DNA of 64,000 nt from Synechococcus sp. RedBA-s (GTDB taxonomy: Bacteria > Cyanobacteriota > Cyanobacteriia > PCC-6307 > Cyanobiaceae), in contig NZ_JAGQBF010000002.1 in NCBI RefSeq assembly GCF_024345495.1, positions 1 to 64,000 of the forward strand, written 5' to 3'. Below, one piece after another: positions 12,827 through 53,833 of this stretch. The notes beneath the pieces were generated by a model. The model was given only the letters and a program-made list of their open reading frames with translations, did not search any database and was not told where the DNA came from. Made by a program: the position numbers and the translations under genes. Each line of letters begins with the position of its first letter. The first letter of the stretch is position 1.

Positions 12827-13897
12827 TCAATCGGTTGCGGACTTGATCTGCCAGGGCAGGGTCTCTCCGGCCTGGAACGGCACCAGAGGTTGGGGCGATT
12901 CCCCTGCGCCGCCCAGTTCCATCATCAAGGGAACCTCCAGGGGCTGGCGCACCAGCTCGATCCTGTCTTCGTTGCGCGGCAGGCCGTAGAAGCGGGGCCC
13001 GAACTCCGAGGCAAAGGCCTCCAGCCGCTCCAAGGCGCCCTCCTGCTCGAACACCTGGGCGTAGCTCTCAAGGGCATGGGGGGCATTGAAGATTCCGGCG
13101 CATCCGCAGGCCGACTCCTTCGCCTGACGCGAGTGGGGCGCTGAATCAGTGCCCAGAAAGAAGCGGGGCTCTCCTGAGGTGGCGGCACCGCGCAGGGCGA
13201 TGCGGTGCAATTCCCGCTTGGCCACCGGCAGGCAGTAGGCGTCAGGCCGCAGCCCGCCCCGGAACATGGCGTTGCGGTTGATCTGCAGGTGGTGGGGCGT
13301 GATCGTGGCGGCCAGGGTAGGGGGCCCCGCTGCCACGAAGGCCACAGCTTCGGCGGTGGTGATGTGCTCGAACACCACCTTCAGTCCCTGGTGTCGCCGC
13401 AGCAAGGGATCCAGGTGGCGCTCGATGAACACCTCCTCGCGATCGAAGACATCCACCTCAGGGTCGGTCACCTCCCCGTGGATCAGCAGCGGCATGCCGA
13501 TCCGCTCCATTGCCTCCAGCGCCGGGGTGATGTGGGCCAGATCACTGACCCCGGCCTCGGCGTTGGTGGTGGCCCGGGCCGGGTAGAGCTTGGCGGCCGT
13601 GAACACCCCCTCGGCGAAGCCCCGCTCCAGCTCCGCCGCCGCGATCGTGTCGGTGAGATAGGCCGTCATCAGCGGCTCGAAGCCGGTGCTGGCGTCCACC
13701 GCCGCGAGGATGCGCTCCCGGTAGGCCGCTGCCGCAGCAGCAGTGGTGATCGGCGGCAGCAGGTTGGGCATCACGATCGCCCGCCGGAAGACCCGGGCTG
13801 TTTCCGGCGCCACGGCCCGCAGCATGGCGCCATCGCGCAGATGCACATGCCAGTCGTCGGGGCGGCGGATCAGCAGTTGCCGTGGAATGGCCGCCAT
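12827..13897 (-). CDS. pyrC: Dihydroorotase (type II)
   Basis: Third step of pyrimidine synthesis: cyclisation of carbamoyl-aspartate to dihydroorotate. The protein is 356 residues from the ATG at 13897. An upstream GTG at 13915 would add six residues. The zinc site begins with WHVHLRDG near the N terminus. The carbamylated lysine lies in [12 protein letters not shown]. Further ligands are in LLIHGEVTD and FEHITTAEA, and the late Asp in FLGTDSAPH. All expected ligands are present, so it should be active. This contrasts with the dihydroorotase-like protein at 50202-51485, which lacks a zinc ligand. Confidence 0.94.
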
Positions 13898-13941
13898 GGA
13901 GCCGCTGTCGCGCACAGAAGATCCATCCTCAACCCCGGCGG

Positions 13942-48825: not shown

Positions 48826-50202
48826 ATGGCGGCGCTTCCGGTTTCCAGGCCCGTGCCCCTTCGGCTCCTGCTCGTCCGCCATGGACTCAGCAGCTTCAAC
48901 ACCGAGCGTCGCATTCAGGGCCGGGATGATCTCTCCTCGCTCACTGAGGAGGGTCAGAGCCAGGCCCGTCTCACCGGGGCAGCCCTCGCCGACCTGCACC
49001 TCGATGCTGTCTACTGCTCGCCCCTGAGCCGGGCGGCCGCCACCGCCGCCCGGCTGCTGGAGGCCCAGGGGGGCGGCCATCGCGCCCAGCTCGACGACGA
49101 TCTGCTTGAGGTGGATCTGGCCCCCTGGTGCGGTCTGCTGGGCCCAGAGGTGAAAGAACGTTTCCCCGAGGACTATCGCCTCTGGAGGGAAGCTCCTGAT
49201 CAGTTGGAACTGGAACGCCCCGATGGCAGTCGCTTCCGGCCGATCCCGGAGCTGATGGATCAGGCCCGCCGCTGGCTGAATCGCCTGGAGCGAGAACACC
49301 TCGATCAGTCCGGAAATGGGTTGATCACGGTGCTGGCGGTGGCCCACAGCGCCATCCTGCGCTGCCTGGTGCTGCAGCTGCTGGGGCTCCCCGCCAGCCG
49401 CTTTCAAGGACTGCGTCTTGATAACGCCTCCCTTTCGGTGTTCAACCTGCAGCGTCAGGTGGGCGGCGGCGTGCAGGTGCAGATCGAATCGCTCAATGTC
49501 ATCACTCACCTCGGCGCTGGACTTCCCCCGAAGGGAGCAGGGGCGCGGCTGCTGCTGGTGCGCCACGGCGAAACCGACTGGAACCGCCAGGGCCGTTTCC
49601 AGGGGCAGATCGACATCCCCCTCAATGCCAATGGTCTGGCCCAGGCCCATTCAGCGGCCGACTTCCTCAGCGAGGTGCCGATCCAAAAGGCCTTCACCAG
49701 CTCGATGGCCCGGCCCCGCCAGACCGCCGAAGCGATCCTCACGGCCCACCCCGGGGTGAGGCTCAGCAGCCAGGAGGGCCTGGTGGAGATCGGCCATGGT
49801 CTGTGGGAAGGCTGCCTGGAGGAGGAGATTTCCCAGCAGTGGGGGGAGTTGCTGCAGCAGTGGAAAATTGCCCCCCACACCGTGCAGATGCCTGAAGGAG
49901 AAAACCTTCAGCAGGTCTGGGACCGCTCCTTGGCGTGCTGGCGTGCTCTGGCGGAGAGTCTGGAGCCGGTGGAGACCGCCCTGGTGGTGGCCCATGACGC
50001 CGTCAACAAGACGATCCTCTGTGCCCTCCTCGGCCTCACTCCGGCCGACATCTGGATGGTCAAGCAGGGCAATGGTGGCGTGAGTGTGATCGACTGGCCG
50101 GCGCCGGAGAAAGCCGATCGAGGCCTGCCGGTGGTGACCTGCCTCAACCTCACCACCCACCTGGGTGGCGTGATCGACCGCACCGCCGCCGGCGCCCTCT
50201 GA
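48826..50202 (+). CDS. gpmB: Two-domain histidine phosphatase (phosphoglycerate-mutase-like)
   Basis: A cytosolic protein of 458 residues with two complete histidine-phosphatase domains. The first (residues 12-225) has the RHG motif LLLVRHGLSSFN with His19 and a second His in AVAHSAIL. The second (residues 240-440) has LLLVRHGETDWNRQGRFQG with His247 and VVAHDAVNK. Both keep the phosphohistidine, so both might be active, as mutase or phosphatase. Tandem forms of this length are annotated as phosphoglycerate mutase in picocyanobacteria; substrates are not proven. The stop overlaps the start of the dihydroorotase-like gene by one base. Confidence 0.88.
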   Translation: MAALPVSRPVPLRLLLVRHGLSSFNTERRIQGRDDLSSLTEEGQSQARLTGAALADLHLDAVYCSPLSRAAATAARLLEAQGGGHRAQLDDDLLEVDLAPWCGLLGPEVKERFPEDYRLWREAPDQLELERPDGSRFRPIPELMDQARRWLNRLEREHLDQSGNGLITVLAVAHSAILRCLVLQLLGLPASRFQGLRLDNASLSVFNLQRQVGGGVQVQIESLNVITHLGAGLPPKGAGARLLLVRHGETDWNRQGRFQGQIDIPLNANGLAQAHSAADFLSEVPIQKAFTSSMARPRQTAEAILTAHPGVRLSSQEGLVEIGHGLWEGCLEEEISQQWGELLQQWKIAPHTVQMPEGENLQQVWDRSLACWRALAESLEPVETALVVAHDAVNKTILCALLGLTPADIWMVKQGNGGVSVIDWPAPEKADRGLPVVTCLNLTTHLGGVIDRTAAGAL

Positions 50203-51485
50203 TGACGGCCCCGTTGCAGCAGGGTGGCCAGCTGCTCAAGGATGTTCAGCTGCTGCAGGGCCCCCACCAGCCGCTGCTGCGCACGGATGTGCTGCTGGAG
50301 CAGGGCGTGATCACGGCCATTGGAGCCAGCGCCTGGGAGGGGGCGGCTCGCCTGGGCCTGGCCCCTCTGGCTGCGGGCTCCTGGCTGCTGGCACCGGCGC
50401 TGGTGGATCCCCACAGCGTTCTGGAGGAGCCTGAGGACGGCCGCGCTGAAACCCTCGAGAGCCTGGTGCGCTCAGCCGCAGCGGCCGGCTACGGCACCGT
50501 GGCGCTGCTGCCGCGGGCCCGCAACTGGCGTGATCGCCCCGAATGCCTGCGCCTGGCGGCGGCGCCCCCCTTCGAGCTACCCCTGTGGGGCAGCTTCAGC
50601 CTCGGCGGCCGCGGCGAGGACCTCTCGGCCCATGCCGACCTGCTGGCCGCCGGTGCCCTCGGCCTGGCGGAGGAGGGGGAGCTGCCGCCGTTGCCGCTGC
50701 TGGAGCGGGGGTTGAGCATCGGTGAATGCGCGGATCGCCCTGTGCTGCTGGCCCCCCGCAACGCCAGCCTGGATCACGGCGGCTTCGTGCGCGAGGGGGT
50801 GGAGGCCCTACGGGCCGGTTGGCCCCTGGATCCACCCCTGAGCGAAACCATCCCGCTGCAGAACCTGCTGGCCCTGGCGGCCTGCCTGCCCCGGGTGAAC
50901 CTTTGCCTGGCGAATCTCTCCACCGCCGCGGGTGTGAAGCTGCTGCGTGCGGCCAATCCGGCGCCGATGGCCACGGTCTGCTGGTGGCATCTGGTGGCGG
51001 ACAGCGGCAGCCTCGATCCGTTGGCTGAAGGCTGGCGGCTGGTGCCTTCCCTGGGCACCCCCGAGGATCGCCGTGCCCTGGTGGCGGCCCTGGCCGACGG
51101 GGTGATCAGCGCCGTGGCGGTGCACCATCAGCCCCTCGATCCTGAAGAACAGTTGCTGCCCCTGGATCAACGACGGCCTGGCCTGGCAGGGCACCGCTTC
51201 GTGCTGCCGCTGCTCTGGCAGCAACTGGTGCGCGACCAGGGCTGGAGCCCCACGGCGCTCTGGCAGGCCCTCTGCTGGGGACCGGCCCGGCTGTTGGATC
51301 TCCAGGAGCCCGAGCTCCGAATTGGCTCCAGGCGCTGGCTGCTGTTCGACCCCGAGATGGAGTGGATCCCCAGCGCCGATGCCTACGCCTCCCGGGCCGC
51401 CAACCAGCCCCTGAGGGGCGAGCAGCTCAGGGGACGGGTGCTGGCGACGGGGCTGTTGCCGGAACTTTGGCTGGGGCCCCGCTGA
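50202..51485 (+). CDS. Dihydroorotase-like protein lacking a zinc-ligand histidine
   Basis: A 427-residue amidohydrolase-fold protein of the type I dihydroorotase group. It has the N-terminal strand with DVLLEQGVITAIG and the metal-site strand LAPALVDPHSVLEEP. The C-terminal part has WGPARLLDL and a composite beta-sandwich. In active enzymes the metal strand reads DxHxHLREP; here His71 is kept but residue 73 is Val, and the Arg is Glu. The late Asp-His of active enzymes is VHHQPLD here. Catalysis is therefore unlikely; such pseudo-dihydroorotases can serve as a structural partner of aspartate transcarbamoylase. It is coupled to the upstream phosphatase gene and overlaps lepB by 59 nt convergently. 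Confidence 0.75.
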   Translation: MTAPLQQGGQLLKDVQLLQGPHQPLLRTDVLLEQGVITAIGASAWEGAARLGLAPLAAGSWLLAPALVDPHSVLEEPEDGRAETLESLVRSAAAAGYGTVALLPRARNWRDRPECLRLAAAPPFELPLWGSFSLGGRGEDLSAHADLLAAGALGLAEEGELPPLPLLERGLSIGECADRPVLLAPRNASLDHGGFVREGVEALRAGWPLDPPLSETIPLQNLLALAACLPRVNLCLANLSTAAGVKLLRAANPAPMATVCWWHLVADSGSLDPLAEGWRLVPSLGTPEDRRALVAALADGVISAVAVHHQPLDPEEQLLPLDQRRPGLAGHRFVLPLLWQQLVRDQGWSPTALWQALCWGPARLLDLQEPELRIGSRRWLLFDPEMEWIPSADAYASRAANQPLRGEQLRGRVLATGLLPELWLGPR

Positions 51486-52233
51486 GGGGGTCTGGATCCC
51501 CCAGCGGGCCGGTGCGGTTCAGAGGCCAGAAGCGGTAGAAGGCCCGGCCGATGATCTCGCTGCGGGGCAAGAAGGGACCACCGGGCCAGAAGCGACCGTC
51601 CCAGCTGTTGGCGCGGTTGTCGCCAAGGGCCAGCACCGCCCCGGGTGGCACCACGGTGTCGAGGGTGCGGCAGGGGCCGATCCCCTGGCTATCGACAGGG
51701 CAGAAATTCTGGACGTAGGGCTCGCTGATGGCCTGGCCGTTGATGCTGACGTGCCCGCGGGGGTCCACCACCACCCGGTCGCCGGGGACCGCCACCACCC
51801 GTTTGATGTAGGCATCGCAGGCGGGCTCCTGCAGCCCAGGGATTGAGCCGATCACCGGAAGGTTCACCAGCAGGCAGCCCAGGGGGTTGGATCTGCGATT
51901 GGCCTGCAGAGCTGGATCGAAGTGGAAGGGGGAGTGGAAGACCACGATTTCTCCCCGCCGGGGGGCGCGGCTGCGAAGGCTGATTTTTTCCACCAGCAGC
52001 CTGTCCTGGATCTGCAGGCCGGGCAACATCGAGCCCGAGGGGATGAAGCGAGCCTCCAGCAGAAACTGACGGATGCCCAGGGCCACCCCGAGGGTGAGCA
52101 GCACGCTGCGCCAGAAGGCCCAGGAACTCTCCTGTCCCTGGCTGGAGCGATCCTGCGGCTGGGGCCCCTTCTCCGGAGCGGGATCAGGAGCCCCCGCTGG
52201 CGTGGTCGGTGTTGGGGAGTCCTCGGCGCTCAA
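51427..52233 (-). CDS. lepB: Signal peptidase I
   Basis: Membrane-bound serine protease that removes signal peptides. From the TTG at 52233 it has 268 residues: a Pro/Ser-rich N terminus, one membrane helix (WRSVLLTLGVALGIRQFLL), the catalytic Ser in IPSGSMLPGL, the catalytic Lys in YIKRVVAVPGDRV, and the late box ALGDNRANSWDGRFWP. A longer frame begins with an ATG at 52320, but that ATG shares bases with the ATG of the divergent gene and would overlap its start; the TTG before the Pro-rich part looks better. The 3' end runs 59 nt into the dihydroorotase-like gene. Confidence 0.92.
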   Translation of the reverse strand: MSAEDSPTPTTPAGAPDPAPEKGPQPQDRSSQGQESSWAFWRSVLLTLGVALGIRQFLLEARFIPSGSMLPGLQIQDRLLVEKISLRSRAPRRGEIVVFHSPFHFDPALQANRRSNPLGCLLVNLPVIGSIPGLQEPACDAYIKRVVAVPGDRVVVDPRGHVSINGQAISEPYVQNFCPVDSQGIGPCRTLDTVVPPGAVLALGDNRANSWDGRFWPGGPFLPRSEIIGRAFYRFWPLNRTGPLGDPDPLSGAPAKVPATAPSPAPVP

Positions 52234-52318
52234 TGCACACCTGCTGGAGCCGGCCACCTTAGAGCTCTGGAGCGGAGGGAACCCCCTGCCTACCCTGGGG
52301 CGATCGACGCTGTTCTCC

Positions 52319-53833
52319 ATGGTCCGGCCGCGCTGGCATCTGAGGTCCTCGGCAGACGCGTTCCGCCTCGGGCATCGCTGGGATCAGTTCGTCGCCCTCT
52401 GGGCCAGCTTCAACCTGCTCTGGGTGTGCTTCGACATCACCTACGTGCCCCTGCGCACGTTCTGGCTGCAGCGCAACCTCTATCCACTGCCCTCGGCACC
52501 GCTGGTGCTGCGTCTCAGCTTCCTGCCCAACATCACGCCGTACTACGACCGGGTCAAGGGAATCGAGGCCCACCGGGAGACCCAGGCCTACCTGGAGGCC
52601 TTCGATGAGATGGACCGCGCCCTGCTGGCGGGATCCACAGCCAGCGACCTGCGCCAACGTCAGGTGGCGCTCACCGATCAGATGATCGATGACAACCCTT
52701 TCCTTGCCTCGGGTGGCTCCGGCACGCTGGAGAAGATCAAGAACCGGCTGCGCGAGCACGCCGACCAGGATTCGGCCAAACAGTCCGTTCAACAGCTCCT
52801 GGGCGACGATTGGTTGCGCCGCCAGCCCTGGAGCGAGGAGCGCCGCTTCTGGCAGCAGCAGCTTCTGCCTCTGGTGGCCACCAACTACTGGCGCTCGATC
52901 GATGAGAACGGCCGTCCCACCGACAATTTCTGGCGCTTTGATCTGATCCTCTTCCAAAGCGTTTTCCTGGCGGACATCCTGCTGCGGGCGGCACGGCTGC
53001 GCCGCCGCCTGCCGGGCCTGAGCTGGGGGGATGCCCTGCTGCGCCGCTGGACCGATCTGCCACTGCTGATGCCGTTCTGGCGCTTGCTGCGCCTGATCCC
53101 TGTGGTGGAGCGGCTTCAGACCAGTGGCCTGGTGAACATGGAGCCCCTGCGAGCCGTGATCAGCCGGGCTGTGGTGGCCCTCCTGGCGGTGGAGCTGTTC
53201 GAGGTGCTGGCCCTGCAGCTCATGGACGGGGCCCAGGGGTTGATCCGCTCGCCCCAGTGGTCCCAGCGGATTCGCCGCTTGCGCAGCCATCAGAGCGTTT
53301 CGATCAACGACGAGCAGGAGCTGGTGGAGCTGCTGCGGATCTGGGGTCCACTGCTGCTCAGTGATGTGGGTCCTCGGCTCGCGCCCCAGCTGCAGGCTGT
53401 CCTGGCCCATGCCCTGCAGCAATCGCTCCAGTCGATGGCGGTGCCGCCGGGGCTGCGCCAGTTGCAACTGCTGCTGCAGGTGGAGCAGCAACTGACCCAG
53501 CAACTGGCCGCCGGCATGGTCGAGAGCGTGATGGAGCTCTCGCGGGGCGCCGGCTCCAGGCTGCAGCGAAAGGACAATCGCCAGATCGACCTATTGCGCG
53601 ACTGCGTCGATCGCTTCTGGGACGAGCTGGCGGAAGCCCTTGAGCGCGGTCCGGTGCTGGAGCGCAGCCAGCAGCTGATCTGCGCCCTGCTGGAGGAACT
53701 CAAGCTCACCTACCTGGCCCAGATCAACCGCACAGGCATCGATGCCCTGATCCGGGAGCTGGATCAGCTCACGGTGCCGCCGGCAGCAGAGGCTTCAGGG
53801 CCTGCCGCCACGCCTCCGGATCAAAGCCCGTGA
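52319..53833 (+). CDS. Unknown cyanobacterial-type membrane protein with Arg-rich helices
   Basis: A 504-residue protein I do not recognise. The N-terminal part has a hydrophobic helix (FVALWASFNLLWVCFDITYV). A soluble segment of about 150 residues follows. Then come two or three further helices: FDLILFQSVFLADILLRAAR, an LPLLMPFWRLLRLIPVVERL segment with regularly spaced Arg, and VVALLAVELFEVLALQLM. The C-terminal 250 residues are helical and Leu/Gln-rich, probably cytosolic. The FDxI, ADILLR and WRLLRL patterns recall voltage-sensor helices, but no potassium filter (GYG) is present. The start ATG is 86 nt from the likely lepB start; the end overlaps the Spx-like gene by 65 nt. Confidence 0.7.
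   Translation: MVRPRWHLRSSADAFRLGHRWDQFVALWASFNLLWVCFDITYVPLRTFWLQRNLYPLPSAPLVLRLSFLPNITPYYDRVKGIEAHRETQAYLEAFDEMDRALLAGSTASDLRQRQVALTDQMIDDNPFLASGGSGTLEKIKNRLREHADQDSAKQSVQQLLGDDWLRRQPWSEERRFWQQQLLPLVATNYWRSIDENGRPTDNFWRFDLILFQSVFLADILLRAARLRRRLPGLSWGDALLRRWTDLPLLMPFWRLLRLIPVVERLQTSGLVNMEPLRAVISRAVVALLAVELFEVLALQLMDGAQGLIRSPQWSQRIRRLRSHQSVSINDEQELVELLRIWGPLLLSDVGPRLAPQLQAVLAHALQQSLQSMAVPPGLRQLQLLLQVEQQLTQQLAAGMVESVMELSRGAGSRLQRKDNRQIDLLRDCVDRFWDELAEALERGPVLERSQQLICALLEELKLTYLAQINRTGIDALIRELDQLTVPPAAEASGPAATPPDQSP

Follow-up and report, generated by a model that had tools for sequence, protein, structure and literature searches.

A dihydroorotase homologue that has lost its metal site is retained across Cyanobacteriia and may be a structural partner of aspartate transcarbamoylase

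The window, a stretch of 64,000 nucleotides from Synechococcus sp. RedBA-s (contig NZ_JAGQBF010000002.1), encodes a homologue of type I dihydroorotase (DHO) that, judged from its sequence, is a pseudoenzyme. It is referred to below as a pseudo-dihydroorotase (pDHO). The protein has probably been retained for a structural role, with aspartate transcarbamoylase (ATCase; PyrB) as its most likely partner, in a complex resembling the class A2 ATCase-pDHO of Pseudomonas; the partnership is suggested by analogy and by evolutionary association. In a fuller account, the Cyanobacteriia would run a two-component ATCase for which they independently made a pseudo-DHO as the non-catalytic subunit, and one Prochlorococcus group would have deleted this subunit and adapted its PyrB to work alone. 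The fuller account is a serious possibility that falls a little short of probable. Although NCBIfam names it an enzyme, this near-universal protein of cyanobacteria is probably not one, and pathway annotations or metabolic models in which it counts as a DHO are therefore at risk.

The pseudo-dihydroorotase and its predicted fold

The pDHO gene (50202..51485, forward strand) starts with ATG and encodes 427 amino acids. Its closest named relative is found in a Cyanobium MAG (L090, 97% identity). The best NCBIfam match of the window protein is NF005614/PRK07369, named "dihydroorotase", which covers the full length with 279.7 bits and thus remains below the curated cut-off of 456. A Pfam scan with E-values up to 1 returned no match; as a result, NCBIfam and solved structures were used instead. 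From 80 fetched pDHO loci, one (L156) was dropped due to stops, and the 79 distinct translations left were reduced to 68. In the PDB, a profile of 68 relatives matched eight distinct DHO sequences from bacteria at E < 1e-62, the best at 1.6e-71. Alignment A2 is composed of the window protein and 67 rows, with L154 also omitted.

An AlphaFold model of the window pDHO, calculated with an alignment of its relatives, scored pLDDT = 92.6 and pTM = 0.93. The top structural match to the model was Thermus DHO (PDB: 2z00, Z = 47.0, RMSD: 2.6 Å over 409 residues), and the Aquifex DHO bound to ATCase matched with Z = 45.8 (4bjh) and Z = 45.7 (3d6n). TM-scores from Foldseek differ between the bound and unbound forms of Aquifex DHO, the unbound chains being shorter. 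According to the model, the window protein has a type I DHO fold over the whole of its chain.

The active site

The metal ligands of Aquifex DHO are given in PMC3880350 as H61, H63, D153, H180, H232 and D305, and this numbering is used for the sites discussed below. Active enzymes present a metal and substrate strand of the form D-x-H-x-H-x-R. When the window pDHO is aligned to DHOs, the equivalent strand (50406..50426, forward) is degenerate and reads D69-P-H71-S-V73-L-E75, encoded by codons at 50406-50408 (D69), 50412-50414 (H71), 50418-50420 (V73) and 50424-50426 (E75) with P70, S72 and L74 between them. In the DxHxHxR of solved DHOs, the first His corresponds to H71, the second to V73 and the Arg (R65) to E75. 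The initial annotation had read Asp-Pro-His-Ser-Val in place of Asp-x-His-x-His and a Glu in place of the substrate Arg; both readings were borne out, by D69-P70-H71-S72-V73 at 50406-50420 and by the alignment of E75 on the Arg of the motif.

R65 and N95 are taken here to be substrate residues of DHO, and Asn95 is replaced by R105 (50514..50516, forward). In the same alignment and on the same strand, E157 (50670..50672) lies at or beside the metal ligand Asp153, A184 (50751..50753) replaces the beta-site His180, N238 (50913..50915) replaces the beta-site His232, and H308 (51123..51125) replaces Asp305. Since the Asp-Asp pair near E157 is short by one residue in every cyanobacterial row aligned, the register and identity of the remaining Asp are uncertain. 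The ligand set of a catalytic type I DHO is consequently absent from the window pDHO, the sole metal ligand left being H71 (H61).

Conservation of these sites was followed in an alignment of 112 cyanobacterial rows, composed of 40 from picocyanobacteria (the window included), 23 from Prochlorococcus and 49 from other cyanobacteria, together with six intact type I DHOs from members of the phylum outside Cyanobacteriia. The organisms of this outgroup are presumably non-photosynthetic. L009, a duplicate, and the fragments L046-L048 are not among the rows; since some strains were fetched twice, the 112 rows do not equal 112 independent species, and the residue counts for each site cover the six commonest residues. 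The HxH pair, that is H61 and H63 together, occurs in 0 of the 112 rows. The beta-site histidines are kept in none either (H180 0/112, H232 0/112), and R65 is kept in three rows and lost in 109. Within picocyanobacteria (40/40) and Prochlorococcus (23/23), H61 is kept and H63 is lost. Among the other cyanobacteria, position 61 is a Tyr in 48 of 49 rows and H63 is retained in 36 of 49. D305 is kept in 48 of the 112 rows, all of which belong to the 49 from other cyanobacteria, and is lost in 40/40 picocyanobacterial rows. The rows outside the picocyanobacteria share a conserved altered site in which Y61, R232 and D305 are each present in 48 of 49; by their positions, R232 and D305 might form a salt bridge in the place of the metal.

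Eight further pDHO sequences, one of which (G175) repeats a counted row, were also without the ligand set. When these were added, the six outgroup rows alone carried the full set. All of the sites are present in the six type I DHOs of the outgroup and in the DHO of Collinsella. Conservation of the altered residues had been proposed as a check on the initial annotation; the HxH pair is broken in every cyanobacterial row, and in the window pDHO the other sites, which had been missed at first reading, are gone as well.

Two other accounts of these substitutions were considered and rejected. A sequencing or assembly error does not agree with the loss of the second His, H180 and H232 in 40/40 picocyanobacterial rows, nor with an open frame and dN/dS values of 0.07-0.28. 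The members outside the picocyanobacteria were also considered as active enzymes, which does not agree with the Tyr in place of H61 (48/49) and the loss of H180, H232 and R65.

Aquifex DHO is described in PMC3880350 as functional with one metal; thus, losing the beta-site residues would not by itself have to inactivate a type I DHO. The broken HxH pair combined with the lost Arg should abolish DHO catalysis.

Likely catalytic dihydroorotases in the same genomes

The likely catalytic enzyme of the window is an intact type II DHO encoded by pyrC (12827..13915, reverse strand), which scores 437 bits against TIGR00856 where the cut-off is 292.95. The ligands of E. coli DHO are listed in PMC2770081 as His16, His18, Lys102, His139, His177 and Asp250. 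By eye, the motifs WHVHLRD, AKLYPA, LIHGE, FEHITT and LGTDSAPH of the window PyrC stand at the places of these ligands. A complete type II pyrC with all ligands had been claimed at 12827, and both the score and the motifs confirm it. Among 194 Cyanobacteriia genomes, a type II homologue was identified in 76 (one as a fragment) and a PRK07575-type homologue in 122, such that 191 have one or the other. The three genomes without another DHO homologue are 68% complete, 62% complete and G143. Two PRK07575-type proteins (from G109 and G154) were read and have QxH for HxH, with Gln at H61 and the other sites present by eye. By elimination, the PRK07575-type proteins would be active DHOs.

The pDHO might itself still be catalytic, whether it is an amidohydrolase that has no metal or other metals, or a DHO with an unusual site. 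The conserved altered site outside the picocyanobacteria, with Y61, R232 and D305 each in 48/49 rows, would suit such a protein, as would the one-metal Aquifex enzyme (PMC3880350) and a Pseudomonas PyrC paralogue without zinc residues that PMC2770081 cites as DHO-active. The HxH pair is nonetheless broken in 112/112 rows, Arg65 is lost in 109/112 and Asp305 in 40/40 picocyanobacteria, and the other DHO homologue is available in 191/194 genomes. Different ligands are broken in each lineage, which is unlike a conserved new chemistry. Residual catalysis is therefore quite unlikely.

Retention and selection across Cyanobacteriia

The pDHO family was found in 20/20 relatives and, at E <= 1e-20, in 187 of 194 Cyanobacteriia genomes, with 168 above the family cut-off. 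In control genomes, the same search picked up other DHOs in 13 of 14, above the cut-off in one. All 187 best matches are at 1.4e-58 or better, and a second DHO reaches only about 1e-39 (genome G015). Of the seven genomes without a match, six are from one small-genome genus and one is 62% complete. In a tree of DHO sequences, 22 pDHO rows fall on one side of a 100/100 branch, apart from the intact DHOs. The dN/dS of the window pDHO compared to seven relatives ranges from 0.07 to 0.28 (NG86, YN00), similar to that of the upstream gene, and by this measure the pDHO is under purifying selection. At the level of sequence there is good support for a protein that is maintained although it does not catalyse the DHO reaction, given the loss of ligands in all relatives examined, the purifying selection and the other DHO homologue in 191/194 genomes.

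A vestige that is heading to loss and is kept by inertia would account for the very long branches of the picocyanobacteria and of a Prochlorococcus-like row in the DHO tree. It would also account for the absence of the pDHO from 52 of 61 genomes in one genus and for one split copy (G234). Presence in 187/194 genomes across the class and a dN/dS of 0.07-0.28 that resembles that of the neighbouring gene argue against a vestige and make it very improbable.

Three members from outside the picocyanobacteria were scanned against NF005614 and scored 593.7-670.2 bits, above the cut-off of 456, yet they too are without the ligand set. Since cyanobacterial members above the cut-off also lack the ligands, the family name "dihydroorotase" looks wrong. 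NF005614 and NF006558 both carry this name, and the cyanobacterial members examined are without the HxH pair. Four alphaproteobacterial matches to PRK09059, two of them over the cut-off, are also without it. A search of the open-licence PMC literature found no paper on a cyanobacterial pseudo-DHO.

Genomic neighbourhood

Upstream of the pDHO gene and on the same strand lies a gene for a two-domain histidine phosphatase or phosphoglycerate-mutase-like protein (48826..50202, forward). Its stop codon shares bases with the ATG of the pDHO gene in the sequence TGATG at 50200-50204. The lepB gene (signal peptidase I; 51427..52320, reverse) is convergent and its 3' end overlaps the pDHO gene. The phosphatase/mutase gene is found upstream, on the same strand and at most 1.5 kb away, in 50/50 picocyanobacterial, 28/28 Prochlorococcus and 36/49 other cyanobacterial loci, and lepB is the convergent neighbour in 49/49, 28/28 and 17/49, respectively; these counts are of loci, not genomes, and include the window's own locus and two pieces of one split gene.

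That the constant neighbour of the pDHO is the phosphatase/mutase gene counts against a partnership with PyrB. The pDHO could instead be a partner or regulator of this adjacent phosphoglycerate-mutase-like phosphatase, perhaps translationally coupled to it through the TGATG overlap, and the pairing is unusually durable. However, the pair is split in 13/49 of the other cyanobacterial loci, the phosphatase gene remains where the pDHO has been cleanly deleted (G102, G122), and the phosphatase stem on the pDHO-less branch described below is ordinary (0.112 compared to 0.124 on the sister stem). A phosphatase partnership is for these reasons unlikely.

The distance between the pDHO and PRK07575-type genes was calculated from coordinates for 150 of the 187 pDHO genomes and for 122/122 PRK07575-type genomes. 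In 20 of the 105 genomes with both coordinates listed, the two genes are within 6.5 kb of each other, and in 17 of the 105, from six families (e.g. G125, G023, G060), the PRK07575-type gene follows the pDHO gene on the same strand at a distance of up to 4 kb. A lepB-like gene was present in the flank of six of seven tested loci of this kind. These arrangements point to a probable ancestral cluster of phosphatase, pDHO, lepB and DHO. The proximity in 20/105 genomes would agree with a pDHO whose partner is the catalytic DHO, or an assembly of pyrimidine enzymes more widely, and not PyrB itself. Picocyanobacteria, however, keep the pDHO though a type II PyrC replaces the PRK07575-type protein. 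We know of no precedent for a pseudo-DHO in either of these roles, and such a partnership is considered quite improbable.

Linkage to pyrB was sought in 139 cyanobacterial genomes with coordinates for both genes. Among 57 same-contig pairs, pyrB is within 10 kb of the pDHO in none, the nearest being 19.9 kb away; in the other 82 genomes the two genes are on separate contigs, where linkage is not judgeable in draft assemblies. In the window's genome (G000), the two genes are on different contigs, C4 for pyrB and C12 for the pDHO.

Natural deletion in a Prochlorococcus-like genus

The small-genome genus to which G171 belongs was surveyed in 61 genomes. A pDHO match was found in 9, two of which hold a split or partial copy, and none in 52; of the 21 good genomes, 17 are without it. 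By inference, in part from named relatives, this genus is Prochlorococcus of the high-light type. In two genomes, G102 and G122, lepB directly adjoins the phosphatase gene, which indicates that the pDHO was cleanly removed. A Prochlorococcus pDHO in two pieces was observed at L081 (G234:C15, 1695-2925), and reflects gene decay or else an error of assembly. Since pyrB is kept in 8/8 pDHO-less genomes where it was sought, the dependence of PyrB on the pDHO would not be absolute.

PyrB itself was compared between these eight pDHO-less genomes and six of the genus that bear the pDHO. The two sets show 38 fixed differences, of which 18 arose on the pDHO-less branch and 11 on its sister; for 9 the polarity is unclear. 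With the tree fixed, the ratio of the pDHO-less PyrB stem to the summed crown depths is 2.18, where the median is 0.75, and PyrB ranks 3 of 43 families; these families, PyrB included, lie near the two loci and were kept if present in the five Prochlorococcus-like genomes and a minimum of two more. The rank of 3 was obtained on five measures of the pDHO-less stem, and the sister stem ranks 9. In a smaller comparison of PyrB with nine controls, in which two families were skipped because of missing genomes, the PyrB stem was the longest. An acceleration of PyrB on the pDHO-less branch is suggestive at about 7%, on one branch and with two genes more extreme. The genes with stems beyond that of PyrB are G171_17, a membrane-protein gene, and G171_31, which from its sequence we take to be ThyX-like; both were possibly replaced by transfer.

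Relatives encoded beside pyrB and the origin of the pseudo-dihydroorotase

A search of plasmid and megaplasmid records with a cyanobacterial pDHO matched 890 records, and six of the 20 listed were fetched; this is not a census. In all six comparator loci, pyrB lies at most 1.6 kb upstream of the DHO homologue. The HxH pair is lost in the five proteobacterial comparators (Acinetobacter, Sinorhizobium, Azospirillum, Methylobacterium and Ruegeria) and intact in Collinsella. In Sinorhizobium meliloti, disruption of smc01361, a DHO-like gene that adjoins pyrB, is reported in PMC5929573 to cause pyrimidine auxotrophy, and the name PyrX is proposed there. From its position, the fetched Sinorhizobium locus would be the counterpart of smc01361. 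For P. aeruginosa, PMC7053772 describes a pDHO that is inactive, yet is needed for ATCase activity, with PyrB alone being monomeric.

In another set, 14 stretches were fetched; six hold other amidohydrolases and two hold PRK07575-type DHOs, and five of these eight were used as distant rows only. Within the same phylum, f44 has an intact type I DHO beside pyrB in 3/3 fetched loci, and many f44 genomes gave no match in the search. The 10 kb fetched for each of three f51 loci holds an intact type I DHO and no pyrB. In the PyrB tree, f51 is the neighbour of Cyanobacteriia (91/93), and the position of the f51 DHO away from pyrB counts against a partnership of the pDHO with PyrB. A shared origin with the proteobacterial pseudo-DHOs was considered; the PyrB tree rejects a single clade (p-AU 0.028, with long-branch warnings); the DHO tree does not separate one origin of the cyanobacterial and proteobacterial pseudo-DHOs from the alternative (p-AU 0.302). 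Taken together, the two trees favor an independent loss of catalysis, and the parallel may be convergent.

The initial annotation had offered a scaffold for ATCase as an example of what the protein might be maintained for, and this role remains the best reading, although an indirect one that is partly supported. The pyrB-adjacent relatives, the acceleration of PyrB where the pDHO is lost and the Sinorhizobium genetics point to it; the lack of pyrB linkage in cyanobacteria and the Prochlorococcus-like genomes that keep pyrB without the pDHO weigh against it. In the mechanism proposed here for a structural partner of PyrB, an ancestral type I DHO would have been associated with PyrB, and a second DHO, of the PRK07575-type or type II, would have taken over catalysis. 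The old DHO subunit could then have lost its ligands while retaining its shape and contacts. In one genus with small genomes, most of those sampled would later have deleted the pDHO, with PyrB changing in compensation.

If the pDHO does partner ATCase, pseudo-DHO scaffolding would have arisen more than once. The Prochlorococcus-like deletion with its accelerated PyrB would then provide a paired comparison of an ATCase with and without its dead subunit, and the deletion in the Prochlorococcus group may be considered a natural experiment in the removal of an enzyme scaffold.

Comparison with known systems

The cyanobacterial pDHO may be likened to the pseudo-DHO subunit of class A2 ATCases (PyrC' or PyrX of Pseudomonas and alphaproteobacteria). 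Like this subunit, it is a full-length type I DHO homologue without the HxH pair, it is accompanied in the genome by another, putatively catalytic DHO (the intact type II pyrC in the window; 191/194 genomes), and a homologous PyrB is present. In contrast to class A2, where adjacency to pyrB is usual although not strictly defining, the cyanobacterial pDHO is not near pyrB. The cyanobacterial ligand positions are filled by other residues, and the PyrB tree groups Cyanobacteriia with f51, which has an intact DHO, and not with the proteobacteria. The likeness is an analogy drawn from sequence and model; with the absence of pyrB adjacency among the reasons, the pDHO is not filed here as a proven member of class A2.

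The class A1 ATCase-DHO of Aquifex aeolicus (3d6n, 4bjh) contains a DHO of the same fold as the pDHO model (Z = 45.7 and 45.8). The Aquifex DHO is catalytic, whereas the cyanobacterial pDHO is without its ligands. Another parallel is the pseudo-DHO domain of fungal Ura2, which according to PMC7053772 keeps a DHO fold without catalysis beside ATCase. While the Ura2 pseudo-DHO is a domain of a fused protein, the cyanobacterial pDHO is a separate protein.
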